Below, piece after piece: positions 4,160-64,000 of a stretch of 64,000 nucleotides of DNA. Position 1 is the stretch's first letter. Every line of letters begins with the position of its first letter. Under the pieces are notes generated by a model. It ran no database searches, was not told where the DNA came from, and saw only the letters and a list, made by a program, of their open reading frames with translations. This DNA is from Agarophyton chilense. Its lineage: Eukaryota; Rhodophyta; Florideophyceae; Gracilariales; Gracilariaceae. The stretch is taken from the NCBI GenBank assembly GCA_030374765.1, contig JARGXX010000138.1, forward strand, positions 930,001 to 994,000, written 5' to 3'. The translations under genes and the position numbers were made by a program.

Positions 4160-4318
4160 TGTCGGCCTCTGTTTGGGGCTGTGTCCACGTGTGACGCGGA
4201 CGCAGCCCCTCGCGAGCTGAAATATCAAAACCTTCCTGCGAGCGGTGGAATTGGAGGGGGGCGAGGGAAGACAAAGAAAAGTAAAGAGAGGGTACGCTTG
4301 CCCGTAACAAGCCTTACA
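4160..4318 (+). repeat. 5' LTR of element A (159 bp)
   Basis: It starts TGTCGGCC and ends CCTTACA. It matches 10830-10988 over its whole length except around 4275, where this copy reads acaaagaaaa and the other acaacgaaaa. It is unusually short for a gypsy LTR. Confidence 0.95.
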
Positions 4319-4331
4319 TGGTACCGCATCC
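4319..4331 (+). promoter_or_regulatory. Candidate primer binding site of element A
   Basis: TGGTACCGCATCC directly abuts the CA end of the 5' LTR, the normal place for a tRNA primer site, and begins with the TGG that pairs with a tRNA CCA end. Which tRNA it matches cannot be told from the window. Confidence 0.6.
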
Positions 4332-4350
4332 AAGGTCTTCAAATACGAAG

Positions 4351-23454: not shown

Positions 23455-23535
23455 TCTCCCCCTCCTTAAGACGAGGAAGAACATTCCGAGCCGCGGGTGT
23501 CTCGTTTTCCGGTCACTATATATACTTCTCTCCCA

Positions 23536-44429: not shown

Positions 44430-45676
44430 AGCTGTATTGCACACAGACGCTGGTCCCAACTTAGTCCATCCTAAGCTACTTTCACTGGGTTGGTAAGATT
44501 TCGTTCAGGCAAGGAAGACCCCAAGGATTACCGATGCGTAACGTAGACCAATGGAAATTACAGGGATACTACCACTTTACCTCCAATTAAGGCAATTCAA
44601 AGTCAGCACGTGGATCCTTGTATGTCCTAACTTGGGCGCTGAGGCAATCCTAGGAACTTCTTTTATCGATCGGTACATCAAGGCCATTTATCCAGGCTTT
44701 AGAAAAGTCGTGTTCTACCGCGCACCTTCGATCTCCATAACTGGTTCCGCCCCAGGGCCAGAAGCTAACCGCAAACGAGCAGTTGTCTTCAAAAACACGA
44801 ATTCCAATAAGGTTCGCCTGTCAAAGGCCATAACGATACCGCTGATGACCGAAATCACTGTATCGGTCCATTCCCAGTCCTCAGATCTGGTAACGATCAG
44901 AACCACCCGAAAACGGTTCTGAAGCACCTTACCTTGATGGGGAATGGAGTAATGGACATCCACCCAAACAGCTTTTTGGTCACAATCAGTAACTTCCGAG
45001 ATAAACCCGTGCAGTTACCTAAACATAAAGTGATTGGTATCACTCTACCCGCGCATGGATAACCTTGCGACGCCTACTCCCGATGAGGACGTCCACTCTT
45101 AGGAGGGGACGGTCGCCATCGGCGCAGAATTAGAATCCTATAGGTCCCAGGTGCTTGATCTCCTCAGGGAATACCAGGCCATGTGGTCAGGTATATTGGG
45201 CACAATCGCAGCCACTACACACCGCATTGACCTTCAGGATGATGCTAAATCACAGTTCCAGCACCCATACCGTACCGGCCTTAAGGGTAGGGAAATTGTC
45301 ACCGACCATATAGGCAAGATGCGCAAAGCTCAAGTTTAGAGCCGGCGCCTCCAAACAAATCCGAATGGGCAATTCCACTTGTCTTCGTGGCGAAGAAAGA
45401 TGGCTCCTTCAGGTTCTGTGTCGACTACAGGAAGCTGAACGCAGTAACCAAGAGGGACTCATGCCCGAAAGCCCGCATGGACGACTGTCTGGATTCCTTA
45501 GGCGAAACTGTCGTATTTACCACACTGGACGCTAACTCCGGATACTGGAAAATCTCTTTGGCCGAAGATGCGAGAGCGCTGACAATCTTTACCACCCATG
45601 AAGTTCTGTTCAGATTTACTCGCATGCCCTTTGGTTTGAAGAATACACCAGCCACTTTCCAAAGGGTAATAGACAT
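44430..45676 (+). pseudogene. Protease and first half of reverse transcriptase of element D
   Basis: The protease active-site region reads HTDAGPN where related elements have DTGAGPN, followed by AILGTSFIDRYIKAIYPG and KVRLSKAI, homologous to the element-C protease region. The reverse transcriptase begins at LLREYQAMWSGILG (45151). After a frameshift near 45338 it continues with KKDGSFRFCVDYRKLN, TTLDANSGYWKI and MPFGLKNTPATFQR up to 45676, where element E is inserted. The second half resumes at 61540. Confidence 0.85.
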
Positions 45677-45699
45677 CGTCTGTGTTCTCGGAATGCTAG
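45677..45699 (+). repeat. Left terminal inverted repeat of element E
   Basis: Starts CGTCTGTGTTCTCGG and ends in TGCTAG; pairs with 61517-61539 with one mismatch. Two more CTAG-containing motifs follow at 45707-45712 (tgctag) and 45765-45770 (cgctag), in the subterminal region where transposases of this group bind. 45700-45929 has no gene. Confidence 0.92.
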
Positions 45700-45929
45700 A
45701 TAAGTGTGCTAGATAGTTAGTTTTGTAAATAAAAAGCCAAAAAATCTAAGAATTTTGCAGATTGCGCTAGTTCGGCACCTGAAAAAAAAATTTTGGAAAT
45801 AAGAACTCCATGCATCTTAGTGTTTTGACCACTTAATGCAGTTTAATCTGCATTTGCAGTTTACTGGTCACTTTTGACCGCTCTAGGTGGAGATCCATAC
45901 CAAGGCAGTCGTCAGTACCTTCTACCTCC

Positions 45930-46875
45930 TTACTGGCCCTTTTGCTTACTAGGCTCCAGCGTTCCACCGGGAGGATATTTGAGGTTGAAGAAGTCCACCA
46001 CCGCATTCTCAACCTCGTCCACCTCCCCACTGCTCAAGTTCCTCACACCCAGCTGCCCCACCACACACGCATTCCCACCCTTCTTCTCCACATCCTTACC
46101 AACCCTCCTCTTCTTCAGGCGACTCTCTCCAACTCCTCCCCCTTTCCATTCCTCTCTCCCCTTCTTCATCCCAGCCGGCTGCCCGCGTCTCCCTGGCGTC
46201 ACCGGCGACCCTTTCGCTCTCCCCCTCTCCTCTCCCACCTCCTTCAACACCTTCCGCGCACCCCAAATCTCCCCCACCCCTTCCATGTGCACTTCCAACA
46301 CCTTCACACGCCTCTTAAGTTCCTCATTCGCCCTCCACAGCTTCCCCATCTCCAGCCCAATGCATTCCACCATCCCATCTATATGATCCCTGGCCATCTT
46401 TCCAGCTAGCCTCACCCCCCTCCGAACGTTCGATATTGCCTCCAATGGCACCCCACCCTCCGACGCACTCAGCACTACCCCTCCCAACTCAGAAACAACC
46501 TCGGAAATGCAGTCATCCACCTTCTCTTTCAATCCACCTCCAAGCTCCCTTACCCGCTCCTTGATCTCCTCACAAAACTCTTCTTCCGGTCCCCCTCCCC
46601 CACCTCCCCCACCCTCCATCACCCCTTCCGCACCACAATTCTCCTTCCTCCCGTCCTCCTCCTCTTCCTCCTCCTCCGCCAGTGGTGTCTCCGGCACCAC
46701 CCTCTTGTCCAACAGCGCATTCAGATCCTCGTCCGGTACGCATCCCCTATGAACATGAAATATAGACCGCTTCGGTATTGCAATGTGCCAGAATGTGGCC
46801 CTCAGGGCTTCGCAAGGGCCGATACTGCTTGGTAACACAGTGGATGTCGTAATCTTGATATCTTCGACAGTTGTC
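45930..46875 (-). CDS. Coiled-coil protein of element E, unknown function
   Basis: The open frame is about 300 codons, but no ATG opens it; it could start at an exon boundary such as the TTCATAG/GGGATGCG junction near 46748. Visible parts: an acidic stretch (EEEEEEED), a Gly run, a helical coiled-coil region (FCEEIKERVRELGGGLKEKVDDCISEV and later LWRANEELKRRVKVLEVHMEGV), a basic nuclear-type stretch (SRLKKRRVGKDVEKK) and the C-terminal SSGEVDEVENAVVDFFNLKYPPGG. I do not recognise the family. It is the gene nearest the left end of the element and may be a DNA-binding accessory factor. Confidence 0.55.
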
Positions 46876-47040
46876 TTTCACTATGAGAAAGTGAAAGCAA
46901 GTGCTGCTCTCACGCGTTTCAATCCAGTTGTTCAGGAGTTTCTACTGAAAGACGACTGATCACTATTACAAGAAAAGGGGACTACTCCACATATTACCTC
47001 AAATTGTACTCTTTATTGTTCAATAGGTAACAGATACTAT

Positions 47041-50000
47041 CTAGTCGTCGTCGTCATCCATTATCATTCCGCCGTCTTCATAGTCTCCATCTGTGTTAGC
47101 CGAGTTGAGACACATCCCAGGTTCATCATCCTCTTCTTCATACTCCTCTTCCCCACTTTCAACAACTTCCATTTTATAATCTTCATCCAACTCCTCATCC
47201 TCATCTACCTGGAAGTCTTCATCATCACCCTTGTTGGAATCATCCTCTTCGAACTTAGGCCGAAATGCTGGTTGCGTATGCACTGCGTCCGGTAGCTTGT
47301 ACCCATCCGGTACCAAGTACATGTGATACCTCATGCAAACTTCCTTAACCAATGCATCCTCGTATCCAGCTCCAGCATGAAACACATCTCCTCTTCCAAT
47401 AAAAATGGAGTACGACGGAATCCTGAACTTCCTCACTACCATCGTCCGAGACAGCCTCTTGAAGCTCCTGTCGTCGGGCACATACATGTTATGTGACCTC
47501 TCACAAACCCAAAGCATAAACGAACTCGCTCCCGACGCCATCATGAAGAACCCTGGAACCTCTCCGACGTTCTTCTCGGCATCGGTCAGTCCTCGAAAGT
47601 CCGTATGTAACACCTGCCTTGGACAGCCCTCCGCCGTACATAGCACTCGCCCCCCTGTTTCAGAGGCATACATCCTCTTCTTCCCCGACCGGGTGTTGCA
47701 CAACCGAAGAGCGGCCGCCATCTGTCCAAACCTCGCATCCAACAATGCCCTTTTCCTCACCATTAAAACGTTGTTCTCGTCCCCCTCCACATAATCCACA
47801 ATCCCCACCTTCGTCGTAATGTACCGCCCAACTCCCTTCATTCTATCTCCAGCGTCTCTCTCCTCACCAGCGTTGATTATAGGGTCCCATTTCTTTCTAT
47901 TCCCTTCGATCGTCAAGTCCGGCTGGTTCAAGAAATCCGTCTGGAAGAACTCTAGAAAAGTCCCAGTCACATCCCCATCGAAGTTTACCCCCCTCTTCTT
48001 CGCCTCATCCGCCATCCCCTCGTCCGTGGCAAACTCTTCCAGCACACAAAATCCTTTCTCCATCAGCTCACTTCTCTTAGTCGCGAAGTACTCGCGGGCC
48101 AAGTCATCCCTCTCCATTTCTGCCATCCATATCGTCTGCTCTTCATTCACAGGGTGGTCCTTCGTCGGTAGAATCACCCCAAGAACCGGGTCTTTCGTGG
48201 AACCCAGTTCCTTGTGCCTGTTATGAGCAGCACGCCAATAAACCGCATGGTGCACACTTTTCAAGTCTTCTACCCTCAAGCACTCCGCCCTGTGCTTGTT
48301 CCGTAGGTAAATCATCTGCATCCAGAGGTGCTGATGCTTCACTCCATTTTCACCCGCTGGCCACTCGCTCGGAAGTGCATTCACCAAGTACACCCACGAC
48401 ATACCCGACCCCCCCGCATACGGTCCCGCGCTCTTCAGCCCCTTCGGAACACCCTCCGGATTATTGTCTTCGAAGCCACGCATTTGCACACCTTCCTCCT
48501 CTTCGTCCCCTACAAATGCACCCTGCCCCCCGTCATCATCCAGTTCATCCTCACTCGATGAGAAAACATTGAGTACATGTTCCTTCAAGAAGCGCTTCAG
48601 CTCTTTCCTGCTCATCTTCTTGAACACATCCACCACGTCAGCCGGTATTTGAGCCGCAGATGTGCCCACCGTCTTTCTCCTCTTCCTCTTCCGCTTTAAA
48701 GGCTGTTCATACTCGCGTTCATCATCACTAATGACCACAGCCTTTCTCTTCCCCTTTCTCTGTCTAGGTTCCATCACCCTCTCACCCGCAGCATCCAGCC
48801 CGCGCTCAGTACCTTTTCTAGTTCGTGTGATGCGTCTGGGAACCACGGTTTCCTGGTGGGGTACAGACTCCCCAGCACTAGACGAAGGAACATTCACAGA
48901 AGGTGGCACCTCCACCACATCCTTCTCCGCACTTGGGGACCCCAGACTCACTTTCAGACCGCCTTCAATCCGCCTTTGTGCGATTTTCATCCTCTTCGAC
49001 ACCAACCCCGGCCACAACTGCTTCGGACCACTGAGCTTTATCTTCGCCGTTTGCATGCAAAGGTACTCCCTTAAAGACACCTCGTTCTTTCCCATCACAA
49101 TTGTGCTGTCTAGAACCTTCCCCGCCGTCAGACCCTTCTCCTTTCCCGCCCTTTCGCATAGTTGGAACATTCCTATGGCGCATTGGAAGAACTGCTTTCG
49201 CGTCTCCTGGAAACGTCCCATATTCCCCGTAGAACCCATCCTCACCCTCACATGGAGCTGCAAACAACGGATTGCGAAACGGAATATTTCGTCTTCGAGT
49301 CCTAACAACAAGTCACTCGACACATGCGCAAGCGTTAGCACTGGACCCTCCTTGTATACGTTCTCAAAGAACTCCAGAAGACCTTCGCTCCTGACGAATT
49401 TCAACCCAAGAGTCGCATAGCGATTCAAGTGGCGCAAGCTGTAGATTCCTATAGCTTCGCTCGTCTTCAGCGCCCCAGCTATCCGTGTCGGAGTAAGGTC
49501 AGCCAACTTGTTTCTCTTATCGTCAATCAAGTTGCAAATGAAGGACACTGTCGAATGAACCTTGTCGGCGAAACTCATCTTCAACACATTTGAACTCATT
49601 TCATAGAGTACATTACTAAGACCGAGCACTTCGTTCAGCGATAAAGGCTTCCGGTCCTTGCCTCTCCAAAGAACGACATCAAGAGACCGCACAATTTCCA
49701 ACCACTTTCTCCCTTCAGAGGGATCATTCTTCAGATCTCGCAGAACCAAGACGCGGTGATGACCGTCAATGAGTATGACAGGCACCACTACCCTCCCATT
49801 GTGAACAATTTCACTGAAATCTAATTCCATTCCCCCGACGATGGCAACAGCAATCGACCCTGCCCACGCAAGCCAGCCAAAAGTTTTGCACTTTGCCATC
49901 GTCGCCGCCTTGTGTTCCGCATTCACACTTCAGACAGTCTTCTCGGGGATTTGTATGTCATCTATGTCCACAATCAAGCGGCACTGGTCATAGTCTGAAA

Positions 50001-50727
50001 CAGAGATCTTCTTCTCCACGAGAGTCCTATCCACTTCCTGCGAAGGAACGGCATCGCCGTCATCGAACAACTCCAACTCGGGACCGGTGTGCGAATCCCC
50101 GCGTACATTCACCGCTGACCCCACCTCCACAACATCTTCATCAGAATCATCCACTATCGTCACCCTCTTTTTCGGCTTGACGGGTTGCTTCATGGCCGGC
50201 GGCACTGTTGTTGGCTGTGCCCTCTTCCCCCTCAAAGGCGTAGCAGACTCCTTCGAGGGGGTCGCGCTTTTGGGAGTCTCCGGCCGAGGAGGCCCTGGAG
50301 TCAGCACAGAGGAGACGCGTGTCATCATCGAGGTATCCCAGGCGTATATACCTGCCGACACGATATCCTTCAGCAACTCCGGCGGCTCCTCTGCTCCCTT
50401 GAAAGAGTATGGATACTTGGAGTTGAACCCCTCCTTAATTTCAGTCCTCCAGAGGGCCACCAAGTCCTCTCCAGGCTTCGCAGACTCGCGCAACGAATGG
50501 CCCTGCATCGCTCTGCAAAGCGCCTTCCCGGCCGCTCCACTGCCCCCAACACCTCTCAACTCTGCAGTGCCAACCATAGTACCCTTCTTCTTCCCTGTAT
50601 TATCCGCCAGGAACAACGCCACCCTATCCCCACCAGCCAGATTGTTTCCCGATGTAGCTTTTCGCGGAGTGGCGCGTGGAGTACCCCGCGGAGTACCCCT
50701 CGCTTTCGCTTTGCCTCGAGTCATCAT
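47041..50727 (-). pseudogene. ParB-like domain plus Fe(II)/2-oxoglutarate dioxygenase protein, one in-frame stop
   Basis: One frame of about 1,228 codons from ATG 50727. N-terminus: AT-hook-like RGKAKARGTPRGTPRATPRK. A ParB-like fold spans YDQCRLIVDIDDIQIPEKTV, the stop TGA at 49930-49932, SVNAEHKAATMAKCKTFGW and VILIDGHHRVLVLRDL (near 49765). The stop falls inside this domain and fits a CGA to TGA change at a CpG. The middle is helical, with a nuclear-type signal (PLKRKRKRRK). The C-terminal part is a double-stranded beta-helix dioxygenase: LHTDF (about 47605), SFMLWVCERSHN, IFIGRGDVFHAGAGY and MRYHMYL give the H-x-D, distal H and 2OG-binding R. A very acidic tail ends it. Such enzymes can oxidise methylated bases, histones or proteins; the substrate is unknown. 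If the stop is obeyed, a downstream ATG (about 49899) would give a dioxygenase without the start of the ParB fold. Confidence 0.8.
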
Positions 50728-50872
50728 TTGAATCGGATCGTAGTCGGTCGAGGTTGCAAATGGTCGCAGAGCGCTTTGAGCCTTTTATGGTATACAGACT
50801 AAGACGTATTGGATCGAGCTCCTTTGGTGGCGACTATCCAGAACACTCCCGAGAGCAGTTCGTTGCAATCAG

Positions 50873-50924
50873 CCTGAACTACGTCCGCTTAGTTTCAACC
50901 TGAGCTACGTCCGCTTAGTTTCAA
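50873..50924 (+). repeat. Two tandem copies of a 26-bp unit
   Basis: The unit cctgaactacgtccgcttag... is repeated directly with a single difference (aact versus agct). It lies between the dioxygenase start codon and the palindrome array. Confidence 0.9.
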
Positions 50925-51017
50925 ACTCAAGAAACTCCTTGTCTCTTTCCATCGCAAACACGCCTATTGGCTTGGTAGGAGATACAAGAAAATAAAATTA
51001 AAAAATTAAAAATATCC

Positions 51018-51092
51018 TGACGGCCGACAGAGCTGCGCGGGGACTTCATCGGAACCCCCGATGAAGTCGGAGCGCACCTCTGTCGGCCGACA
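51018..51092. repeat. Palindrome 1 of the element E array
   Basis: Arms of about 35 bp, with a few mismatches, around a short centre near 51052-51056. The outer end is itself a 12-bp palindrome (TGTCGGCCGACA on the right, tgacggccgaca on the left); the inner part is gacttcatcgg / ccgatgaagtc. Confidence 0.92.
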
Positions 51093-51140
51093 GTCGACCA
51101 ACATCTCAGAAACGCATCATGCGTGATGTTATGGCGTATT

Positions 51141-51214
51141 TGTCGGCCGACAGGGGTGCCCTGCGACTTCATCGGTCCACCGATGAAGTCGCAGCACACC
51201 CCTGTCGGTCGACA
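51141..51214. repeat. Palindrome 2 of the element E array
   Basis: Same plan as palindrome 1: TGTCGGCCGACAGGGGTG... with inner cgacttcatcggt / ccgatgaagtcg and a right end cccctgtcggtcgaca. It begins 123 bp after the start of palindrome 1. The middle bases (ccctg) differ from palindromes 1 and 3 but have changed on both arms, keeping most pairing. Confidence 0.92.
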
Positions 51215-51258
51215 TAATACATATTATTTTGGAACGCCCAGGTGTACACGGTGCACTC

Positions 51259-51333
51259 TGTCGGCCGACAGAGGTGCGCTCCGACTTCATCGGGACCCCC
51301 GATGAAGTCGAAGCGCTCCTCGGACGGCCGACA
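51259..51333. repeat. Palindrome 3 of the element E array
   Basis: TGTCGGCCGACAGAGGTG..., inner cgacttcatcggg / cccgatgaagtcg, right end ggacggccgaca. It begins 118 bp after the start of palindrome 2. A few arm mismatches lie near 51311-51325. Confidence 0.92.
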
Positions 51334-51506
51334 GAATGCAACCAGGATAGCTGCGAAGTCGTTCCGCAACAACCGTTCTTCCGTGCGTGCTCCTCAACCG
51401 TACTCACAATCTTTCCGTACCCACCCGCACCCACCCCCACCCGCTGCTCTCTTTCACTGAGGCTCTCGTGACAACCGCCCGTGAGGTTGTTTGAACACGT
51501 ACATAA

Positions 51507-54500
51507 ATGGCTCCAGAACCCACGAGAACTTCTTCATCGCCTGCGGCAAACACCTTCAAAATGGGTAAACTGTTTGGTACGGGGGATGAAGTTATCAGGG
51601 CGTGTCTGGATTTGCGTGATCGTTACTCATCAACGAGGCGGGAGGAAGATGAGCCGCGAAAAGTGGGGCACACTGCATTCATCGATTTCGCAATTGCCAA
51701 TCACCACATCCCACCGGAGACCGCGAAGTTTTTTTATACTCTCCTAGGTCCCGACCACACCAATTACACAGAAGATGAGCTCCGAGTTGTAGGAATGAGG
51801 GGCTCGAACTGTCAGAATTATTTCTCGGCGAGGTTGCTGGATATAAGGGATGGGGACCCAGATAGGCGCGTGAGGGACTTTTGGAACGCGTACGAGGCGG
51901 TGGAGTTCAAGGGCATCCCGAAGAATGTCACTTTGACAGAGTTCTTCAAAGGTCTGGATACAACCCGAAAGAAGGCGAGCAAAAGCCGGGCTCCATTCGC
52001 GACCGACTTCCCGACAATGTTCCAGAGGTTGCTGTTCCTCATTTGTATTCAGTCGGTATCTATGGAGAAGAGAAGAGTCTCCCGTAAGCGAAGAAAGCGG
52101 GACAGAACCTACGATACGCCATTTTCGAAGGTGGCGATTTATGACAAACCAGTACCTCAGCGTGTGGGCTTTGGTGTGCAGCTCGTCAATAACGCGTGGG
52201 ACAGCTTCGCCCAGTATTTGGGATTCCCTGGCGTGGAATTCATGGTTTTGCTCTTTATCCATCTACGATATTCTGATATGCAGTTCCAGGCAATCGGAAA
52301 CAGAAGGGATGGGTTCTCTCACAAGGACATGGCCCAACGACTCCTTCCTGGTAGAAACCGTACTTTATTGGAGGAGGATGTCGTCCCATGGGCGTGGAAC
52401 CTGCCGGAGTACGTTGACACTCCACTTCGTATGTTGGCCAAAAAGTTTCTCGCTGACCTGCACAAAGTGGTGGTGAATGAGCAGCTTTACTGTATATCAG
52501 CTCCGGAAAGATGGGACGTTCTAAAACCGTTTACATACACTTTGCCTAGAGTGTTTGCGGAGAGGTTCGACTGCTTCTCGAACTCTCTTATCTCTACCAT
52601 CTCGGAATACATATCGCCACTAAAGCTGCGAGGGAGTGTGGAGGTGGAAGTGGTGACTGCGACAAAGGCGGAACCTACTCTGGTTATGGAACAAAACGAG
52701 ATAGAAGTTGTACGCACTGTGAAAGATTCGGAGGCTCCGGCGGTGGAGGGTGGAGAGGGAGTGGAGGGTGGGACCGGGAATGAGGAAGAGAACATGGGTG
52801 TTGGTCAGCATTCTTCCACAGCTGGACCAAGGTCGGTCGAATCTGAGTCGGTGGATATTCTGCCGCCTCACGACCTTACCTCTCTGGATGATATAATGTA
52901 TCTCCAAAAGTGCGAGTCGGAGATGGATAAGCACTGTCGAATGTACAATTGTACTTTCGAGAATCTGGTGGAGATTGACGAGACATTGCGCAGCAATGGG
53001 GTCTCTCCGATAGGGAAAGTGCAGTTGGTTCTCACGGACCCGCCGTATAATATACGTGCGAAGAAGAACAGGAAAAACAGCTGGTACGACGTTCTTAACC
53101 GGCAAGACATGGTGAAGACGGCGAAGCTCATCTCTAAACTTCTGCGTCCGGGAGGGCATTTCGTTATATTCTGCGCGATTGAGCAGGTGAACGAATGGAA
53201 AGAAGTGTTGGGTCGAATTGGTGCAAAGGATGAGAATGGACAGAAGAGCAGGTCGTTTGTCGTGGACAAGGTCCAGCTGCACTTCATTCGCTCTCAAGGC
53301 AATCCGATGCGTAATCCCGGACGTAGTTCGTGCTCCCTGTTTCCCGGAACAGAGTACGCCATTCATGGAGTTCGCAGCGGGTTGTCCTACGCCGAATAAC
53401 ATGGCATGGTGAACTATGAGAACTTCAGCTATGTACCATCGCGATATCCGGGTTACCATAGCGTGATTGACCAAGTGCCTCCCATGTCGAATGGTGAAAC
53501 ACTTCTATGGAGAAGGAAGAATGCCAAAGGAGCAGTTACGTATCAGAAAGTGCGGGCGGAACAGAAGTCACGCGCTTTGCTGAAGGAGCTCATCAGCAGG
53601 TTTTCTCAGCCGGGAGACATAGTGGTGGACCTCTTCGCCGGAACATTTTCAACGGCCACGGCATGCATGGAACTGGAAAAGCACCGTCAGTTTCTAGGGT
53701 GTGAGCCAGATCCGCAGTGCTTTGCTCATGCGAAGCACGCCGCTACAGTGAAATTTGCGTCATGCATGCGGAACAACGAGACGGACATTCATATAACGCA
53801 AGATGTTCGGAACGCTGTGACTCGAGTGACATGCTTGTTTCCAGACGTCGTCATAAAGCGTTCGAAGTCCTGGAAAACACCTACCGGATTTACCGAGCAT
53901 CAGATGTTTCCACCCCATATCGTGGATTTTCTCTCCTCCATGTGGCAGGATAATAATATATCGGAGATTGGGCGACGGCAGGCGCTGTATGAGTGGCCAA
54001 GAAGTTTTCAAGGAAAGATGTCACTGTTGGATTGGAATGCTATTCTGGCAGTGGAGGCGACAGTATGTGGTTGTCGGATTGCAAATGCTGGAGTTGGTGT
54101 GTACACAACACGCCGGGTGATACAAGGTGAGACTGTTTGTTACTTTTACGGGACTTTGGTGTACCATGATCTTTCAAAGCGGAAGGAAGTTCATAAGGCA
54201 TACGGAGGGGGGCTATTGAAAGCGACTGCTGATCGTTTTCGGCAGTACGCGATGGAGATAAGCGTCCGAGGGGAAGTGTTTCACAAGCTACCAGGAAGAA
54301 TCAGTGGGGTGTCTCTTATTCCGGTGTGGATTGTCCCTACTCCATTTTGCTTGGGGGCAACAATTAATGACCCCAAGTATGTGGAAGGGGATAGGGACAG
54401 GGATGCGGTTGAAGACGGGTTAATGAGAGGCCGAACTGCAAATGTTCGGGTCATCAGAACTCCGGGGACGGGGCGGACCCCATTTCAGTTGAGAGACTAT

Positions 54501-54617
54501 AGATTCCTTTCTGTGCAAGCAATTCGAGATATAGAAATAGGAGAGGAGCTGTTCGCGGATTATGGGACAGAGTATATCTGGAGTATGAATAACACGCCAG
54601 TCATAGTAATCGATTAA
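51507..54617 (+). pseudogene. DPPY amino-methyltransferase fused to a SET domain, one in-frame stop
   Basis: One frame of about 1,036 codons from ATG 51507. Residues 1-480 are of unknown type, with a basic patch (KRRVSRKRRKRDR). The methyltransferase follows: VQLVLTDPPYNIRAKK (DPPY at 511-514), LISKLLRPGGHFVIF, then after the stop TAA at 53397-53399 the SAM-binding motif DIVVDLFAGTFSTATA (about 53615-53660). Motif IV before motif I is the beta-class order of DNA N6-adenine/N4-cytosine methyltransferases. C-terminal is a SET domain: IANAGVGVYTTRRVIQGETV, GATINDP, ANVRVI and EIGEELFADYGTEYIW, which in other proteins methylates lysine in histones. The TAA lies between motifs IV and I, so the enzyme cannot be made without readthrough; it fits CAA to TAA. 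No other lesion is seen. Confidence 0.82.
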
Positions 54618-54939
54618 AAGTGCATCGCTTTTGTTACTTTACTTCATTGTAGTGTACCAGATATTGTGGGCTTTTACTATGTTTGTCGCTACATATAACG
54701 TCAAAGCGTGACGTAGTACATATGCTAAAGGAAAGTCATGTACACCGAAGGAGAATACTTTTCCAATATCTGGTGCGTTCGAGCGCATATTTAAAATATA
54801 TGAAAACTTTGGGGGTTTTCTGAGAACACGAAAAGGGTGGAGGTATATTTTTGGAAGCAGAATGTTTCGAAGCTTCTCTCTCATCCATCGCATTGCAACG
54901 CGTGGAAGACCATACCACGATCGCTCTCTCTCTTCAACC

Positions 54940-57594
54940 ATGGCTCCGAAGCGCAAATCGAGAAGCGAGAACACCAGCGGGCGCGGTACAAAATCACGGC
55001 GGCATGGAGGGGATGCGGAGGGCGGAAGGGACAAGGGGCGTAGGCTCCAGAGCGCGAGTGGAGAGAAGGGAGGCGTGCGCCTGAGAGGTAGATCAAGGAA
55101 AGTTGGTGGGGAAGGAGAGGCGAGTGGGGGCAAAGGAAAGGCTGTTCGCGCAAAGGAGACGGTGACGGAGGAGAGTGCAGAGCAAATCACGTCGCGTACG
55201 GAGCAAATCACGTCGCCTACGGGAGAGATGGTGCGGAGCGGCGATGGAAAACGGGATGGAGTGCGAAGCAACCACACGCGTGTACCTAGAAGTGGATTGC
55301 GGGGGAGGGCGAGCAGAGCTCCAGGGAGGACAAGGAGAGGGGATGCATCCGAGCGGACTCTAAGTGCTGTACTCACGTCTTCAGCTGATGTGGAGCCGGT
55401 AAATCCATGCTCTGCAACTGAACGAGGTGAAGAGATTTCGAATGAGAGGACGAAGGGGCGTAAGGAGGGAGAGAGAATGATCGGAGAACGTGGATCCCGC
55501 CTCAGAGGCGTTGAAGAAGCAGGGGCATCGTTTACGGGTATGAGAGAAGAGGACGGTAATGATGAGATACAGAAAGGGAGAATAGAGAGTAGCCGTGGTG
55601 GGGAGTGTAGAATAGGTGGACCCAGTAGTGGTCTAATGGCGGGCGCAAGAGTCGTTCGAGGGAGAACAGAAGGAGAGAGTGTTGGAGTTACCGCGGGGGA
55701 ACAGGCGGAAAGATGGGAGGGGGCGAACTTGGATTACGTGGAAGAAAGGAGAGAGCGTGCAAGGGAAAGAATGGGGAGTGGTCGAGTTACAGGAAGAAGA
55801 GCGATAGACGAAAGGGAAAGCAGAGAAGTGCATGTGAGTGAGGGGGGGAGAAGGGGGTTCGCTGGAGGGAGAACACGTGGTTCAGGGGAGGAAGGCGATG
55901 GAAGAGCAGCAGTTCTTTCTCATCAGGGAGAAGATGTCGAGCGTTTGCCACCGAGGAGAGGGGTGGGTTTGGGAGTTGAAGGGTTTGAGGTGAACGCAAG
56001 GCGAAGAACGCCGGAAGGTATGCGAGTAAGGAGAAACATTGTATTCACAAGGAATAATGATAACGGGGAGAATGCGAATTTAAATGTCGTGGAGAACGCC
56101 GTCCGTATAGTGGAAGATGAAGCAAATGATGATGACATAGGTTTGTTGCCGCGGTCGATGCTAATTGAGAAGATGAATGTGTTGAAGGGAAAAATGGGAC
56201 GTATGAAGGAAGACAGCTACAGTGTGATGGTGAGTTTGAAAATGACCGAAACGGAGCTGGATCGGGCGAGGGAGGAAATGAAGCAGCAGAATGTGCTTAT
56301 TGAGAGTTTGAGGGAGGCGTTGAAAGGTAGAATCGCTGTGGAAGGGAGGGGGGAGGGAGGCGTGACGCGGCGACGAAAGTATGACATTGGAGTGCAGGAT
56401 TGCTTTTATGGATTTGCACGTCGTTTGTATGATAGGATTCTTCATTATGCAAAACTGGAGGCATCGGAACTTTGCTTCGACACCGAGAATGTGGGTCGAA
56501 GCTGGAAGAATAGAAGTGAGGTGGTTCGGGAGAGTAGGAAGGAACGTATGTTTGTGGTGGGAGAGAAGGAAATGGTTCCGAGATGTCCAATTGAGGTTGC
56601 ATATGAGATGAGACCGTATACGCCGTCGACAGAGGGCGGGAGCCATTTGTTGTTGAAGCACGTGGCAGAGACTGAGTTAATGGGAGAGAAATGGGAGTCG
56701 ATAAGGGAAGCGGGGAGGAGAGAGGAGTGCGTGGAAAATGTAAGTGCGGATAGGTGCTTGAGAAAGAGGATGAAGCAGAAATTGAGCGATGTAGTTGGGG
56801 TGCGGAAGCGAGCAGCGCGTGATGAGCTGTTTTCGATGCTTGGATATGGTTTGATCGCGAAACGAGCTAAGGTAACTGAAGGGACGGAGCTTTGGGCGGA
56901 GTTGAAGAAGCAGATTGAGGAGGCGCAGGAGAAGTTGATGGGGTCGGGGGAGAATGGGAGAGGTAAGCTGTGTGCGTGGAGAACGAGTGCGATTGAAGAT
57001 ATTACTTATTCTGGATCGAAGGTGTCTGAGAACTTGGAGGACTTTGGTGAGGCAGATATGTATTTTCGAAATCAGGTGTCGTTGAAAGTGTTGGAGGAGT
57101 TTATGAGCTACGCGGTAGAGAGTCACAGAAATGGAGAAAGGCAGTATGTGGATGGGACTGTGATGCATCTTGCGCGACTTGATGCATGGATTGGATGTGT
57201 GGTGACCACGATGGATAGAGACGTAGGGCGGGGAGGCCAAAGGCAACTTTTGTTCTCGACGCTGTTTGGGAGGTTTCTGCCACTGGCTGTTGAGGACATA
57301 TTGAGGGTTGCCTGGAAAATGGTGAAGGATGAGTATGCTGAGGAGTTTGAGAATGATGGATTCTGTGGAGGGAATCGTAGAGATGTGAGTGGGAATAAGG
57401 AGAGAATCGCGACGGTTGGGCTATGGATACCGTCGAGAGAGAAAATCTATCTGGCGATAAGGGAGGAGTTTTTCATGGAGAATCTCACGAGAAGACTTGA
57501 AGCGGTGTTAGATTGCTATATAGCGTCATGTGGACCAGAAGAACCACGGTTCAAGCGCTTAGCGTTGGGGAGTAGGCAAGGAGTGGGAGAGTGA
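54940..57594 (+). CDS. Large basic coiled-coil protein of element E, unknown function
   Basis: The ORF of 884 codons is taken from ATG 54940 (ACCATGG context; MAPKRKSRSENTSGRG); an in-frame ATG at 54862 would add 26 residues. Residues 1-380 are low-complexity, very rich in Arg, Gly, Glu and Lys, with ITSRTEQITSPT repeats and several bipartite nuclear-type signals. A coiled coil covers about 400-465 (LIEKMNVLKGKMGRMKEDS to LIESLREALKGRI). The C-terminal 400 residues look globular (CFYGFARRLYDRILHYAKLE, RYQ-free, with LSDVVGVRKRAARDELFSML and WIPSREKIYLAIREEFFMENL). No known family recognised. It follows the methyltransferase gene by 322 bp on the same strand and faces the transposase gene, whose end is 87 bp away. 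Unlike its three big neighbours its frame is unbroken. Confidence 0.65.
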   Translation: MAPKRKSRSENTSGRGTKSRRHGGDAEGGRDKGRRLQSASGEKGGVRLRGRSRKVGGEGEASGGKGKAVRAKETVTEESAEQITSRTEQITSPTGEMVRSGDGKRDGVRSNHTRVPRSGLRGRASRAPGRTRRGDASERTLSAVLTSSADVEPVNPCSATERGEEISNERTKGRKEGERMIGERGSRLRGVEEAGASFTGMREEDGNDEIQKGRIESSRGGECRIGGPSSGLMAGARVVRGRTEGESVGVTAGEQAERWEGANLDYVEERRERARERMGSGRVTGRRAIDERESREVHVSEGGRRGFAGGRTRGSGEEGDGRAAVLSHQGEDVERLPPRRGVGLGVEGFEVNARRRTPEGMRVRRNIVFTRNNDNGENANLNVVENAVRIVEDEANDDDIGLLPRSMLIEKMNVLKGKMGRMKEDSYSVMVSLKMTETELDRAREEMKQQNVLIESLREALKGRIAVEGRGEGGVTRRRKYDIGVQDCFYGFARRLYDRILHYAKLEASELCFDTENVGRSWKNRSEVVRESRKERMFVVGEKEMVPRCPIEVAYEMRPYTPSTEGGSHLLLKHVAETELMGEKWESIREAGRREECVENVSADRCLRKRMKQKLSDVVGVRKRAARDELFSMLGYGLIAKRAKVTEGTELWAELKKQIEEAQEKLMGSGENGRGKLCAWRTSAIEDITYSGSKVSENLEDFGEADMYFRNQVSLKVLEEFMSYAVESHRNGERQYVDGTVMHLARLDAWIGCVVTTMDRDVGRGGQRQLLFSTLFGRFLPLAVEDILRVAWKMVKDEYAEEFENDGFCGGNRRDVSGNKERIATVGLWIPSREKIYLAIREEFFMENLTRRLEAVLDCYIASCGPEEPRFKRLALGSRQGVGE

Positions 57595-57681
57595 TAAGGT
57601 ACGGGGGGATAAGGGGGTAAGGAGGTGGAGCAAGATGGGGGTCGGCTATGGAAGAAAAGCAGCGGTGACTATTTTATTGGA

Positions 57682-60600
57682 TCATGTGCCTTGGGAGGTA
57701 TCATTATGGGTGCCACCCAGTGGTGGTGTTGTGCTACCAGTGGTGTTGTTGGAGAAGTAGGGCTTGGCAGTTGGGTCTCGGTTGAATCTGTTGAGGTAAA
57801 ATCGATGGAAGCGCCAGTGCAATCGAGGGGTGAAGGGGGGTGCGAGGTAGTTTTGGCGAAGTACATGAACGGGGCCGAGAATGGAAGAGGATGGTACGAG
57901 GCCGAACCAGGGGGAGACGTTGTCGGAGTTGGAAGTGTGGGAGATAGGAAGGGGGTGGGCGGTGTGGTTTTGTTCGTAGTCTGTTGCCCATCGGAGGCAG
58001 ATGAAATTGAGAGAGACATCGACTTGATCCTGGGGTGGAACGAGTTCGAGGAACTGAACGAAGGCGAACTCGTTATGAGTGGAAGGGGAAGAAGGGGTCG
58101 TGAAGCGAAGAAGAGAGTTGAGCTTGCAGACCCGGGCTGTGGGAGTGGGGTTGGAGAAGCTGGAACCGGCAACGAGGATGTGGGAGAACTTTGGGGTTTT
58201 AGAGGGACCGAAGGAGGGAACAGCGAAGATACGTTGAATGAGTGGGAGAGGGGGATCTTTGACGGCGAGCTCGTTTCGATCGGCGATGTAGTCGTCTAGG
58301 GTTGGGGTGAAGCCGCCGACGACGTATGCGGAATTGACGAATGTGAGACGGGTTTGGCGGAGAGTGGGGGAGTCCTGGTTGAGAGCTAGTGTTTCGAGTG
58401 TGAGTGTGACGAAGGAGGGGAGTGCGAGGGTTCCAATCTGTGAGATGATGGCGATAGTGTCTGGGGAGAAGAGGTCCTGAAGGGAAGAGATTGTTGAGTG
58501 GGGGTTTGCTCGAAGGAATTTGTGAGCGGTGATGAGATCGGAAAAGGAGGTGTGCTTGCCATCACGGACGAAACCTGGTTTGTGGGCTTGGAAGGGAGAA
58601 GGAGGGGCATGGGAGGATGAGGTGACGGAAGGATCAGCGGAGAGAGAAATCCAATTGTTGACGGCATCGGAGCGTTCGATGGCACGGATGGTTTCGTTGT
58701 GCGCGGTGGGTCTGCGCTTGGAGGTTCGGGAGTAATGTGCTTTGAAGAGGGTATGGGCTTGTTCGAAGATGCCTGCATCGTTGAAGTGGAGACCCCCAAA
58801 GCGTCGAATGTCGTCTACGATGTGATCGAGGAGGTGGAATTTGAGGGTGCCAAGGTTGGAGGTATGGTATGGACCGAGAACATCAACATCTCTGCGCTTG
58901 AAGGAATGGATTTGGGAGGCGAGTTTGGCAAGACGAGAAGTGGTCCATTCGGGGACGGAGTTGTAGGACATGGAGGTGAGGAGGAGGTCTGTGTACTTGG
59001 AGAAGACGGTTGTGATGGGAGCGTAATTGGCTTCGTCATAGCAGCGGTCGAAGAAGGCGCCGATGAAGGGGAAGACCATGTCGAGGGCGGGGTAGTCTTT
59101 TGCTTCTAGCCTGCCGCGGACGCCGTCAGTTGTGAAGAAGCCGTTGAGGGACTGCCCGCTTTCGGAAGTAGAGAAGTCGATGTGGAGGCCGGTAGCTGGG
59201 GAATGATTTTCGATGGCACTGAGGATGAAGTTGGAGTGCTTGAGGATGGAGGTGCGGACGGAGTGGAAGGAACGGCGGGAGTTTGTGGAGCTGATGGTGG
59301 TGAAGAGTTGTTCTGATCTGAGACGTTCGATGGCGGCGAGCTTGATGGGTTACGAAACGCCGAGGTGGAAGTTGTGGAGGGGTTCGAAGGGGAAGATGTT
59401 GTATGGGGTGAGGAGGGGGGTGATGTTGAAAAGGGGGTAAGACTCGAAGAGGGAGGGGTATTTTGCGAGGGAGAGAAAGTGGAGTGCTTGGAGAGCTTGT
59501 TCCTTGAAGTTGCGCGAGACTCTTGGCTTGCGGGCGAGGAGAGCTGCTTCGGAGTCTTTGAGGAGGGAGAAGTGTTTGTTGCGGGCTGCAAGGGTGAGGG
59601 GAAGAGATCGAGGGGGATGGGCGTGAGAGTGTTGGTGGAGTTGTGAGCGAGGGACAGAGCATCTGTGGCAGGGGTGCTGGGGGCGGGTGCCGTGGGAGAT
59701 GGCGAGAATATCCTTTGCCTCGGAAATGTCTGCGCAGTAGCTGGCGATGATGGGGTGGAATTGACGAAGAACAACGTCTGCGTCGCGGAAGGGGAAACCG
59801 GGGAGGGCGGAAGAGAAGAGAGGTTGAAGGGGGGAGGATATGGTCTGCTGTATGAGTTCCATTTTTGTTTGGCGGGGGATGGAGGAGGAATGAGTGATGA
59901 TATCTGCATCTGGAGAAGGAGTGATTGGGGTGGAGGAGGTGGGAAGATAGCCGAGGAGTGTGAGATTGTCGGAGATGCATTTGCGGCGAAAGGAGTCGGA
60001 GAAGTTGAGAAGGGTGATGTGGAGGGGGTAGGAGGTGATAAAAGAAGATTTGAGAGAGGTAGAGGACTTGTCGGAGTAGATTTGGACGAGGCCGATGAAG
60101 GAGTCGATACCGGTGGAGTGAGGGAGATGCCAGACGATGTTATCTTTTGTGGACTGCATGATGGCGGTCTTGAGTGCGGGGACGACTTTTGAGCCGAGGG
60201 TGGCTGCCATGGGGTGTGCGAAGGCGGGGGAGCCGGAGGCGGATGTTTGGGAGATGGGGTGGAAAAAGGTGTTCTTGAAGTGTGCGAGGGCGAGCTGTTG
60301 TTTAAGGACATGGATTGCGTCTTTCTGGAAGAGGGTTGCGGAGAAGCGTTTGTAGGGATCGAAGATGGTGGAGGGGGCGAAACCAATGGACCTGATTCTC
60401 TGGTGGAAGAGGTCTGCCTGGAGCTTGAGGCATTGCTTTGCGGAGGAGACTGAGTTCTGGAATGTTGATTCGGAGAAGTGGGGATCATTAAGGAGAGTGA
60501 TGAGTTCGTCAGCCTTTCGTTGTCCAAGCTTGGAGGCGATGGAGGAGATGTAGAGGACCATTTTCCCCAGGTGGGGGTTGTCGAGGGGGGGAGTGAAAGG

Positions 60601-61024
60601 AGGGAGGGGGGAGAGATCGAGAGAGGAAGGGGAACCGAGAGGGGCAGTGGCGACGTGGATGGCGTCCTGGGTGTGGAGGGAGAGAGAGTGCTGGTTTTGG
60701 AGGTAGGAGTCATGGTGGGCGAGAGAGTGCTGGTTTTGGAGGTAGGAGTCATGGTGGGCGAGAGAGTGCTGGTTTTGGAGGTAGGAGTCATGGTGGGCGA
60801 GAGGGACGTTGTCGGAAGGGAGATGTGAGGGAGGAGGATGAGGGGGGAGTTGTGAGGTGGACTTGTGGCGTTTTGTGCGCGGGGGGGAAGTTGGGTTCAT
60901 TTCCGCCAGGGGAGAGAAAGCGCTTGTTGGCGGAGAGGCGATGAGGGCACCTTCTCTGGTGCCGCTGGAGGGCGGGGATTTCTCGGGCGAAGAAGGAGCA
61001 ACCGTTGAAGCAGCAGGAAGGCAT
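57682..61024 (-). pseudogene. Plavaka-like transposase of element E
   Basis: Start is taken at ATG 61024: MPSCCFNGCSFFAREIP...LQRHQRRC is a C2H2-like zinc finger typical of the N-terminus of these transposases. The frame must shift in a run of seven G (60881-60887, plus strand) to join the main frame (RTKRHKSTSQ...). Then come three LAHHDSYLQNQHS repeats, CADISEAKDILAISHGT, PCHRCSVPR, FEPLHNFHLGVS, the stop TAA at 59350-59352, PIKLAAIERLR, and, in the last part, KFHLLDHIVDDIRRFGG with FEQAHTLFKAHYSRTSKR. The KFH..H..D.IR.fG and pCHRC blocks are Plavaka hallmarks. The same frame is open from 59349 to 57682, so the only main-frame lesion is one stop that fits CAA to TAA. A Pro/Ser/Thr-rich ORF in another frame (60791-59106) is a shadow. 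Confidence 0.78.
60682..60798 (-). repeat. Three tandem 39-bp repeats in the transposase gene
   Basis: Three identical copies start at 60682, 60721 and 60760 and encode LAHHDSYLQNQHS (13 residues) each. Being a multiple of 3 they keep the frame. Perfect identity shows recent expansion. Confidence 0.93.
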
Positions 61025-61516
61025 GTTGGGTGGAGGAGAGGTGGTGGGAAAGAAGTTGGTAGGGGGCGTAGAAGGAGAGAGAGTATGGCGCACACAGGGC
61101 ACGTGACAGGGGAGGGCGCTGGAGAATAATATAGAATGCAAGGCACATGAGGTCTGCCAGGTCGGGCTGCGATTCTATTGCGATTGATATGGATGGTACA
61201 AAATGTTCAATTTCTATTTTGAGGTCCATTTTGGGACCGGTTGTTTGTACTAATCTGTCAATCTAGAGCGCACAAAGATTGAATCTGCTCCTGCACCACT
61301 TCTCTACTTTTACCTTTAAACTGCGGCGACAGAAAGATTCACGCTAGTTTTACCTCCATCAAAACTAGAAAAACTGCAGATATGTGCTAGTTTTCCTTCC
61401 CATAAAAACTAGCACTAATGAACGAATGAAAATATTTTCGGAAATTAACACCTCCAAATTTGGATAAATCCACGGGTTTTTCGGTCATTTCAATTCGTCC
61501 TTTTTTGACCACTGAA
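61025..61516. promoter_or_regulatory. Right subterminal region of element E with CTAGTTTT hairpins
   Basis: Non-coding stretch between the transposase start and the right terminal repeat. It must hold the transposase promoter. Two inverted pairs are clear: gctagtttt...aaaactag (about 61343-61369) and tgctagtttt...aaaactagca (about 61385-61413). The CTAG core also ends the terminal repeat, so these look like subterminal transposase-binding motifs. Confidence 0.65.
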
Positions 61517-61539
61517 CTAGCATTCCGAGAACACTGACG
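61517..61539 (-). repeat. Right terminal inverted repeat of element E
   Basis: On the minus strand it starts CGTCAGTGTTCTCGG and ends in TGCTAG; one mismatch to the left repeat (A for T at the fifth base). The flanking AT is at 61540-61541. Confidence 0.92.
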
Positions 61540-64000
61540 ATCATACTGTCAAGAGTCAAATGGAAGTTCGCCCTGGTCTATTTGGGTGACGTTATAATCT
61601 TCTCACGGACCGTAAAGGAACATTTTCGCCACGTGTAGAAGGTGCTAACAATCCTACAGGACACTCGAGTAACACTGGGCCTCTGCAAATGCGCTTTCTT
61701 CCAGGCCTCAGTGGACTATCTGGGTCACGTCGGCCTCCCAGGAAAGCTATAGGTGGCCACACGGACCACAAATGCGATTCACCAGGCAAAGCCTCGTAGG
61801 AGCCACACGGAACTACGATACTTCGGGGGCTTTTGCAACGTTTAACGACGGGCTGTCCAGGCGACTGCCAAGATCCCGGCCTCTCAACGCGATGCTGAAG
61901 AAGGGAACACCTTCGGAGTTCGAAGCTCTTACCGACGACAAGTACGAGGAATTTCAGACCCTAAAGGACAAATTGCTGAACCCGCCAACATTGGTTTTAC
62001 CAAAGCCCAATAGGCCTTTCGTCCTGGACACAGATGCCTTTGATGTCCAAGTGGGTTGTGCACTGCTACAGGAACAGGAGTCACCGAAGGACTATCGACC
62101 TATTGGGTACTGGACCAGAACGCTCACCAGCGCGCAGCGAAACTACAGTACGACCGAAAAGGAATGTCTAGCCATCGTATGGTCCGTACTGACACTACGC
62201 CCGTACCTCGAGGGAACTAGGTTTACCATTGGGACAGACCACAATTCACTCCGCTGGCTACTCAATATGACCGATGCATCAAGTCGCCTCGCTCGGTGGC
62301 GCCTCAAGCTGTCCGAATGTGACTACGAGATAACCTATGGGCCAGGCATCAACCACCAGGCAGCAGATGCCCTGTTACAAGTCATTACCGAGGGAACTGA
62401 TGATACCCAATTGGACGACCTAATTCCCACCCCCTTTAAAGATGATGGACCTCAAAACTATACGGAAACAGATGACCTTATGGGTAAGGTGCAATCGGAG
62501 GACCCTGAGGTAAAAGCGAACGAATTATACCTATTGGACTGGGAGACAGTACCGCCAAATTCGGCACCACCTCAGGTTAATGCGATAGCCCCGGAGGAAA
62601 AAGTGCTCCTCCCCATAACTATTGAGGAACTCCTACAGGCGCAGGTCGAAGACGAATACTGCAAGGAAACAGCCAAATTGGTAGGAACCCCTGGATGCCT
62701 ATACGACTACGACCGATTTGGACTACTATGTCGCCGCTCACCGCTGGATGACGCACTCCAACGGGTAATACCAACTTCGCTAAGGGCGCGATTCCTATAT
62801 CTCGCCCATTTTCCCCGCTTGGCTGTTCATCTTGGAGACCAAAGAATGTACCAGACCCTAAGGAAGTTCTTCCATTGGCGACAAATGGCACAGGATCTAT
62901 GGCAAACCGCACGGAACTATGCATCGTGCGCACAGATCCGAGGGTATCGCGCCAACCATCAGGCCAAATTGAAGCTCTTCCCCGCCGCTTGTCCGATGGA
63001 GTTTGTTGCAATGGGTATAATCGGGCCTTTGAATAATTCTTCCCATTGGAAACGGTTTGTTTTGGTTATAACCGATAGGTTTACCAAACTTACCCGCGCT
63101 CTACCCCTGGGAAAGACAACAGCCACGGATGTCGCGACGGCCTTCTTGTCCCACTGGGTATATCCATATGGCATGCCACTCTACCTCCTTACGGATAACG
63201 GCAGCCAGTTTGTATCCAAATTCTTCTCACACAATTGTGATACCTTAGGAATCAAACATGCGACCACCACGGCGTACCACCCGCAAACTAACGGGCAAGC
63301 CGAAAGTTTCAACTGCACCCTTCTGGACCGATTAGCGCACTACTTTTCGGAGCACCAATTGGACTGGGACGACTACGTTGCGCCCGTGGTTTATGTCTAC
63401 AACACGCAGGTACAAGCTTCCACAGGTACAACGCCTTTCGACTTAACGCTAACGAGAGCGCCGCCGCCGATAGCTGTTGACCTTCAGGAGTCTATCATAC
63501 CCCAGGAAATAACCGAAGGAATGAATCCTACCCAGGCGAAGCGCTACTCGCGCCGATGCGTCGACCGCATTATCCAATCGGCCAGAACTGTACTAACCAA
63601 AGCCCAACGGCACTACAAGATCAATTTCGACAAAGCCGTTTGGAACATACCGGCCTTTGGGAAAGGAGGCCTGGTTTACCTGGACCGGCCACCGAAGGAA
63701 AAAGAGGAACTCGAGGACACTACGCGGAAACTCTTACCCCGCTCAACGGGACCATACGAAGTCCTTAAGGCCAATGAACACACCATCACGTAGCTAATTG
63801 ACGGCCTACAGGACACCATGTGTATTGACCGTGTGACACGAGCTCCCAGTTCCTCCGGACCACCAAATTCCCAGCCCCCTGGCCTAACGGAAGCACCACG
63901 ACCTCAGGTCGACGCTAAAGTCTCCACACCCCCGAAGGCAGTTCCCGAGGACTCGAATAGCCTCACGGACACGATTATCAATGCCAACTACTATGACCCA
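61540..64000 (+). pseudogene. Second half of element D pol: RT end, RNase H, integrase, tail
   Basis: It resumes in the RT palm with VKWKFALVYLGDVIIFSRT: the active site reads YLGD where YxDD is required. TAG near 61637 and a frameshift near 61830 follow. The long frame 61772-63790 then carries RNase H (FVLDTDAFDVQVGCAL), TDHNSLRWLL, the integrase zinc region with NYASC in place of C..C, and the core FVAMGIIGPL (Gly for the first catalytic Asp), LLTDNGSQFVSKF and HPQTNGQAESFN. TAG at 63791 interrupts the tail, whose frame (LIDGLQDTMCIDRVTRAP) runs to the window end and aligns with the segment of element C before its chromodomain. The 3' LTR lies beyond the window. Confidence 0.88.

Follow-up and report, generated by a model that had tools for sequence, protein, structure and literature searches.

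The 64,000-nt window analyzed here, from contig JARGXX010000138.1 of the red alga Agarophyton chilense, contains a large DNA transposon inserted in a gypsy reverse transcriptase (RT) gene; coordinates are window positions unless given otherwise. This element is a Plavaka-type, cut-and-paste transposon with 2-bp target duplications, and it carries, together with its transposase gene, a dioxygenase-like gene and a gene in which a DNA amino-methyltransferase is fused to a SET domain. Judged from the predicted proteins, these genes may form a self-marking (anti-silencing) and self-recognising epigenetic cassette, a reading to which we give a probability of roughly 0.45.

Methyltransferase-SET fusion, dioxygenase-like protein and transposase

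Intact reading frames were counted in nine other long copies of the element, with the copy C3:203756-222462, which is without most of the genes, omitted. The fusion was encoded in one open frame in seven of these copies, at 1043 aa in six and 1036 aa in one, and the frame of the window copy was six to seven residues shorter than the intact ones, with a gap in SET. One and the same protein matched PF01555 (66.9 bits, cut-off 26.7) and PF00856 (23.4 bits, cut-off 22.4), with DPPY located at residue 511 and FAGT at residue 710; in beta-class amino-methyltransferases motif IV (DPPY) lies ahead of motif I (FxGT). When 5.8 billion proteins were searched, 21 homologs were recovered, and because 18 of them aligned over at least half of the query at 28-49% identity, the fusion architecture extends beyond one copy. 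The query and 18 of the 21 homologs (P0015, P0020 and P0021 were omitted) made up an alignment of 19 proteins, all of which matched N6_N4_Mtase; DPPY was kept in 17 and SET was matched by 14 (E 0.01). Methyltransferase-type and SET models were the only Pfam models matched by the family, which is old and broad, so that the fusion is no oddity of a single copy. With one frame in seven of nine long copies and relatives of this extent, the first-pass annotation of an amino-methyltransferase fused to SET was borne out. In the tree, the element fusion grouped with P0001 (100/99) and next with P0002 and P0003 (100/99), several deeper branches being weak. An occurrence of the fusion in viral contigs was rejected, as the 18 IMG/VR loci found match only query residues 470-766, that is, without SET.

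With respect to the DNA mark, the nearest named solved structures in the profile search were DpnA, CcrM, MboIIA and RsrI, two unnamed methyltransferases were matched at 7e-7, and N4-cytosine enzymes appeared only at 0.006. NCBIfam adenine-specific models matched all 19 proteins of the family, with the query far under the model cut-offs. By this resemblance, the mark that the fusion would write is most likely N6-methyladenine. The SET profile was nearest to KMT2 and KMT5A (E ~1e-6), followed by EZH2 (6e-6) and EHMT2 (0.012), and a histone target is not singled out because KMT2 and KMT5A were resembled about equally. Canonical SET catalytic motifs are NHxC...ELxxDY; the fusion has GEELFADYG, and the NHxC position reads INDPKY...ANV.

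The dioxygenase-like gene extended over 1247 aa from stop to stop in four of the nine other long copies and over 1224 aa in a fifth. Residues H1060, D1062, H1136 and R1152 were invariant in 8/8 aligned domains, one of which aligned with an insert in HxD; a ninth, incomplete protein was omitted from the domain alignment. The earlier assignment to the TET/JBP dioxygenases stands as far as the HxD...H...R pattern of a dioxygenase-like gene is concerned and is not supported at the family level, where no TET/JBP match was obtained in Pfam or PDB profiles (to E 10) with nine full-length members or eight domains. The PE type of TET/JBP was rejected on the same residues, the element protein having HxD and the PE type HxE. 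A DGxHR motif was present in the N-terminal half of eight of the nine aligned dioxygenase-like proteins, the region being absent from the ninth, and this hints at a ParB/DGQHR-like domain.

The transposase was intact in five of the nine other long copies (1137-1148 aa) and matched the Pfam Plavaka model PF18759 with 65.5 bits (cut-off 26.3, E 6.5e-18), a model recorded for all 14 transposase homologs. The C(2)C/H(3)H motif by which Plavaka (CMCT clade) is defined in PMC12730594 (this and all other papers are cited here from parts of their text) corresponds to C476-x2-C479 and H754-x3-H758, which were invariant in 12/12 aligned transposases. The same was true of D342, D456 and E778, which we infer to be the catalytic triad. 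Target duplications of Plavaka are 2 or 3 bp long, and the 2-bp flanks were equal in 24 of 27 copies checked (11/11, 4/5 and 9/11), the unequal ones being C1:1830591, C2:1231604 and C1:396568. Neither named subgroup was matched by the termini, CGTCT..TGACG: PlavakaA has TGT..ACA, and compared with the CATCA..TGATG of PlavakaB (PMC12730594) the right end is one base off and the left end two bases off.

The three genes were also found together outside the window copy. Of the 40 best methyltransferase places in the genome, 25 had an upstream neighbour at 5.3-6.6 kb among the 40 best dioxygenase places and 19 a downstream neighbour at 6.6-6.7 kb among the 40 best transposase places, always on the same strand. 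As had been proposed, therefore, the dioxygenase-like gene and the fusion share a unit with a transposase, which is of the Plavaka type and colinear with them in many copies. Linkage of the two enzymes appears to extend beyond the element: the fusion homolog P0002 and the dioxygenase homolog P0022 had an equal contig count (4) and an equal longest contig (20,528 bases). No transposase homolog on a 20,528-base contig was among the 14 transposase matches.

An array of palindromes lies between the divergent dioxygenase-like and fusion genes (Table 1). In C10:918487 these genes, whose start codons are at positions 7582 and 8835 of the element, are separated by a spacer of 1.25 kb. The palindrome core was found at 254 genome sites (reversed control 0), and of the first 50 listed, 38 were inside paired elements and 12 at 0.8-13.3 kb from an unpaired element end. 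The array was the most variable part of the element and differed even between two otherwise nearly identical copies. GCTAG motifs were located subterminally at both ends (3 and 4 of 12 in C10:918487).

Copies, insertion site and host

The 23-bp end gave 485 matches (247+238) at up to three mismatches in 79.8 Mb, compared with 5 for the reversed-pattern control, and the 33-bp right end gave 106 matches genome-wide at up to three mismatches, compared with 0. The element family is real and has at least 106 right ends in the genome; given the excess of short-end over extended right-end matches, many ends may belong to shorter families sharing the terminal repeat. Pairing of the 94 left and 100 right ends listed produced 70 pairs and left 33 right ends unpaired, and after removal of four double or overlong pairs 66 paired copies were retained. 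By length, 17 were 18.0-19.3 kb, nine were 15.3-16.3 kb (including the window copy) and 16 were below 6 kb, the remainder being of intermediate length except one of 23.6 kb. Ten long and five short copies were read in sequence, plus ends and left parts of others. At C2:1080383-1080431 two left ends were observed in tandem, 26 bp apart, which looks like the duplication of one end or an insertion alongside it.

Recent activity of the family is indicated by C10:918487 and C117:1463530, which sit in unlike flanks; with the array and the first 2.3 kb set aside, six substitutions and two small indels separate them in ~15.6 kb. Internal deletions of the long element account for all five short copies and also for C3:203756-222462, itself a long copy. 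Among the short copies, four have at least one breakpoint in common, and the fifth (C116:771651) has other breakpoints and no array. As derivatives, these copies give no sign of the gene set being foreign to the unit. Same-ended copies without the genes would have spoken against a gene set belonging to the mobile unit, and those found were internally deleted derivatives only. The copy C3:203756-222462 has also received a gypsy element, which holds an open frame of 1684 aa and, on the opposite strand, a 400-aa frame that resembles by eye an open reading frame of the window at 23470-24804; an additional gene may thus be present in gypsy elements of the host. A further gypsy-type open frame of 1390 aa occupies 4285-8457 of the window.

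The window copy is a decayed member of the family. It deviates by 1.44% from the majority base per column of other copies, compared with 0.02-0.03% for the two youngest copies (outside the left part and the array), and of the five genes that the first-pass annotation placed between the ends, all of which are present, those for the dioxygenase-like protein, the fusion and the transposase each contain one in-frame stop. Long copies were observed to be mosaics: segments in full agreement with one copy give way in turn to segments that deviate by 1-2%, which indicates recombination or gene conversion among copies. Purifying selection within the family was considered and was not resolvable, as copies form a star and are mosaics of each other.

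The left part of the element came in three variants. The first has extra frames between element positions 1219 and 3811, the second lacks positions 571-2787 of that version through a deletion, and the third, the window type, has gene A. Among the extra frames, one has a faint ketopantoate reductase likeness (ApbA_C E 0.038, below cut-off) and one is membrane-protein-like. Seven 15.4-16.3 kb copies besides the window copy share the ~571-2787 deletion, which removes the ketopantoate reductase-like frame. The gene A variant is common to the window and C1:396568 and, in part, C16:1471213. The window copy belongs to this left-part variant, and is not a simple deletion of the 18.7-kb class, because two other copies also have the 456-bp stretch found at 46363-46818. 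Gene D gave no match in Pfam. The coordinates of all features are collected in Table 1.

Table 1. Features of the element and of its insertion site in the window.
Feature	Position	Strand	Remark
Whole element	45677..61539		15,863 bp
Target-site duplication AT, left copy	45675..45676		
Target-site duplication AT, right copy	61540..61541		
Left terminal inverted repeat, 23 bp	45677..45699	+	CGTCTGTGTTCTCGGAATGCTAG; used for the genome-wide end search
Right terminal inverted repeat, 23 bp	61517..61539	-	inverted partner of the left; one mismatch between ends
Gypsy reverse transcriptase cut by the element, left part	45291..45676	+	resumes at 61542
Gene A	45930..46877	-	315-aa open frame, no known domain
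Dioxygenase-like gene	47041..50784	-	stop at codon 285 (49930-49932) in window copy
HxD...H...R iron/2-oxoglutarate motif	47329..47607	-	residues 1060-1152
ParB/DGQHR-like motif LIDGHHR	49732..49779	-	in dioxygenase-like protein
Palindrome array	51014..51353	.	~120-bp units, near-perfect palindromes of ~74-115 nt
Amino-methyltransferase/SET fusion gene	51507..54617	+	1043 aa where intact; stop at codon 631 (53397-53399) in window copy
Beta-class DNA amino-methyltransferase domain	53019..53732	+	DPPY then FAGT; interrupted in window copy
SET domain	54090..54566	+	Pfam match
Gene D, basic protein	54712..57594	+	923-930 aa in 2/9 other long copies
Plavaka-type transposase gene	57679..61206	-	in-frame stop at codon 619 in window copy

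Direct reading of both ends confirmed the 23-bp inverted repeats with their one mismatch and the AT duplication. On joining the flanks, the RT frame was open over the junction, reading ...ATFQRVID up to it and IILSRVKWKFALVYLGDVIIF... beyond it, and then reached a stop after 32 codons. The exact restoration of the host frame that had been proposed is consequently a local one, since this stop indicates that the host gypsy copy is itself broken. Uninterrupted insertion sites were found elsewhere in the genome 18 times (2-3 mismatches in 39 bases; control 0).

The fungal setting from which the first reading had started did not hold. Nine light-harvesting and 13 phycobilisome-linker matches were found in the genome, and the presence of such genes on element-bearing contigs rules out a fungal host and identifies it as a red alga. 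Six linker matches lie outside C39 (on C1, C10, C16, C68, C80 and C88), and because all six of these contigs also bear element ends, contamination is unlikely. One linker had 69 PDB matches, among them red-algal LRC2 of structure 5y6p (E 9e-58), the source of which we take to be Griffithsia; the matches scoring higher were mostly multi-domain linkers such as ApcE. The dioxygenase-like protein also had a homolog, at 33% identity, assigned to Gracilaria domingensis, a red alga.

A possible self-marking cassette and its alternatives

According to the reading we prefer, an element protein, most likely the ParB-like part of the dioxygenase-like protein, would bind the palindromes, and copies of the element would in this way be recognised as its own. 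On the same chromatin the fusion would then write two marks, an amino-methyl mark on DNA (most likely N6-methyladenine) and a lysine mark on histones, and the dioxygenase would take off or change an opposing mark. The net result would be permissive chromatin at element promoters, with the transposase and accessory genes staying expressed. Self-control through DNA and histone marks, as suggested by the first-pass annotation, is in this form an inference from the predicted domains. N6-methyladenine fits the methyltransferase type better than cytosine methylation as the relevant mark, and it tracks H3K4me3 and permissive chromatin across eukaryotes (PMC12695648). Whether the element would hold the complete kit, comprising palindrome tag, ParB-like dioxygenase as reader and eraser, and a one-protein dual writer of DNA-adenine and histone-lysine marks, is more doubtful, and we lean against it.

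A number of observations weigh against such a cassette. SET was not recognised in five of the 19 fusion-family proteins, and KMT2, KMT5A and EZH2 lie within about tenfold of each other in E-value. For the dioxygenase-like protein there was no significant family or PDB match (Pfam, PDB profiles), and the ParB-like profile matches were weak (TIGR03187 6.8e-4, phrog_1033 0.018, DndB 0.088) and came from single homologs, with none in the query protein itself. The array is missing from one of the five short copies, and its retention in the other four is not independent evidence because these share at least one breakpoint. CpG transitions were 1.46x other C transitions (0.65% vs 0.45%, and 1.1-2.0 by region, with the window copy and the array excluded), and CpG observed/expected was 0.86-1.15, without depletion; an excess this small speaks against silencing through cytosine methylation, and no trace was seen of heavily methylated cytosines on which an eraser could act. 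Inhibitors of H3K4me3 barely altered N6-methyladenine in Acanthamoeba (PMC12695648), so that a causal link between this mark and histone marks is not established. Within the family, shared changes were too few for a selection test, and singleton pN/pS was 0.74-1.12.

The enzymes could alternatively serve transposition itself. The methyltransferase would mark the ends or the array to time or regulate transposition, with SET and the dioxygenase as helpers, and the transposase would thereby tell newly replicated or already-occupied DNA; bacterial Dam methylation does so for some insertion sequences. We hold this to be unlikely, if a serious candidate. It draws on the methyltransferase being nearest to bacterial beta-class adenine enzymes and on the subterminal GCTAG motifs at both element ends, and it leaves the SET domain in the same protein and the link to the dioxygenase unexplained. 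The palindromes moreover lie between genes and not at the ends, and the array is retained in four of the five short copies and absent from one.

A cassette of opposite sign, with which the element would silence its own or rival copies and so limit copy number and host damage, appears less probable again. Participation of amino-methyltransferases in silencing has a precedent, since rotifer N4CMT puts N4-methylcytosine (4mC) on transposons, and SETDB1 variants bind 4mC DNA (PMC8885841); in the SET profile, enzymes of the H3K27 and H3K9 type are within reach (EZH2 and EHMT2, at the E-values given above). Such a role is hard to reconcile with the recent spread indicated by near-identical copies, and the fusion has the motif DPPY, compared with SPPY in most N4C enzymes.

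It is also improbable, to a slightly greater degree, that the genes are passive captured cargo without a role in the life of the transposon. The left part does vary, with three variants of which one holds the faint ketopantoate reductase-like and membrane-protein-like frames, and no selection was demonstrable within the family, both of which would suit cargo. While left genes come and go, however, the dioxygenase-like, fusion and transposase genes occur together in all three left variants (the window, nine long copies, C100:1000275 and C25:587639), the fusion family is old with its catalytic motifs intact, and homologs of both enzymes appear linked elsewhere. Finally, a fungal TET/JBP Plavaka element of the PE type of Kojima 2025 (PMC12730594) with one extra gene would likewise place a Plavaka transposase and a dioxygenase-like gene in one element, and is very improbable in view of the red-algal host, HxD in place of HxE, and termini CGTCT..TGACG in place of CATCA..TGATG.

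If the element does hold the complete kit, the fusion would be, as far as the literature searches show, the first mobile-element enzyme in which methyltransferases of the DNA and the histone type are joined in one polypeptide, and its relatives would span deep lineages. If the cassette works as proposed, DNA and histone methylation would be coupled in one protein, the natural substrate of which would be a single sequence-tagged mobile element, and this would provide a clean system for asking whether eukaryotic adenine methylation instructs or follows permissive chromatin. Sequence-specific anti-silencing, known from VANC, would also gain a second and independent example.

Comparison with known systems

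Transposon-borne TET/JBP, SET, methyltransferase and ParB-methyltransferase genes have each already been published, and the combination, above all the methyltransferase-SET fusion, was not found in the literature covered. Searches of titles and abstract starts found no such fusion on a mobile element, the red-algal Bostrychia genome paper being outside this coverage. The claim that no described element has this gene set is weakened by published reports. ParB-methyltransferase proteins are reported from transposons of green, red and brown algae, including Bostrychia (PMC12477816), and red algae are reported to contain giant EnSpm elements that carry accessory genes, those of Bostrychia being perhaps closely related.

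TET/JBP-positive Plavaka elements of Agaricus bisporus and Gymnopus confluens (PMC12730594) are alike in transposase, 2-bp duplications and a 2OG-Fe(II) dioxygenase-like gene, and unlike in their fungal hosts, PE-type HxE dioxygenase and CATCA..TGATG termini. The main text of that paper, in the parts available, makes no mention of adenine and has 'SET domain' solely in a HarbingerS reference. HarbingerS and MuDR elements of Phytophthora, named in the same source, resemble the present element in bearing a histone-methyltransferase-type SET gene in a DNA transposon, although they belong to other superfamilies, and the available parts mention no fusion to a DNA methyltransferase.

The Ectocarpus element Sola1-1_Ec32 (PMC12477816) is also a large algal DNA transposon with a prokaryote-type N6/N4 methyltransferase and a ParB-like domain, for which self-modification was proposed. 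Its ParB and methyltransferase parts are joined in one 1104-aa Sola-1 protein, whereas in the element described here SET is the fusion partner of the methyltransferase, and a separate protein, the dioxygenase-like one, holds the ParB-like motif. ParB-like and amino-methyltransferase parts in one protein were not found here, the Pfam matches of the fusion family being to methyltransferase-type and SET models only. Another published methyltransferase-bearing DNA transposon has an endonuclease partner and a transposase of another superfamily, with 'SET domain' not mentioned.

As with the fusion, N4CMT of bdelloid rotifers (PMC8885841) combines a bacterial beta-class amino-methyltransferase with a eukaryotic chromatin domain and is linked to transposons. 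It is host-encoded, with a chromodomain reader and SPPY, in contrast to the SET writer and DPPY of the element. With respect to anti-silencing, VANC proteins of Arabidopsis VANDAL elements, not described as dioxygenases or methyltransferases in the available parts of PMC5735166 and PMC10398659, bind the fast-evolving, non-coding tandem repeats of the transposons that encode them and cause silent marks to be lost (PMC10398659, PMC5735166). Both VANDAL and the Agarophyton element have element-specific, rapidly changing non-coding repeats, and in the latter the palindrome array is the predicted target.

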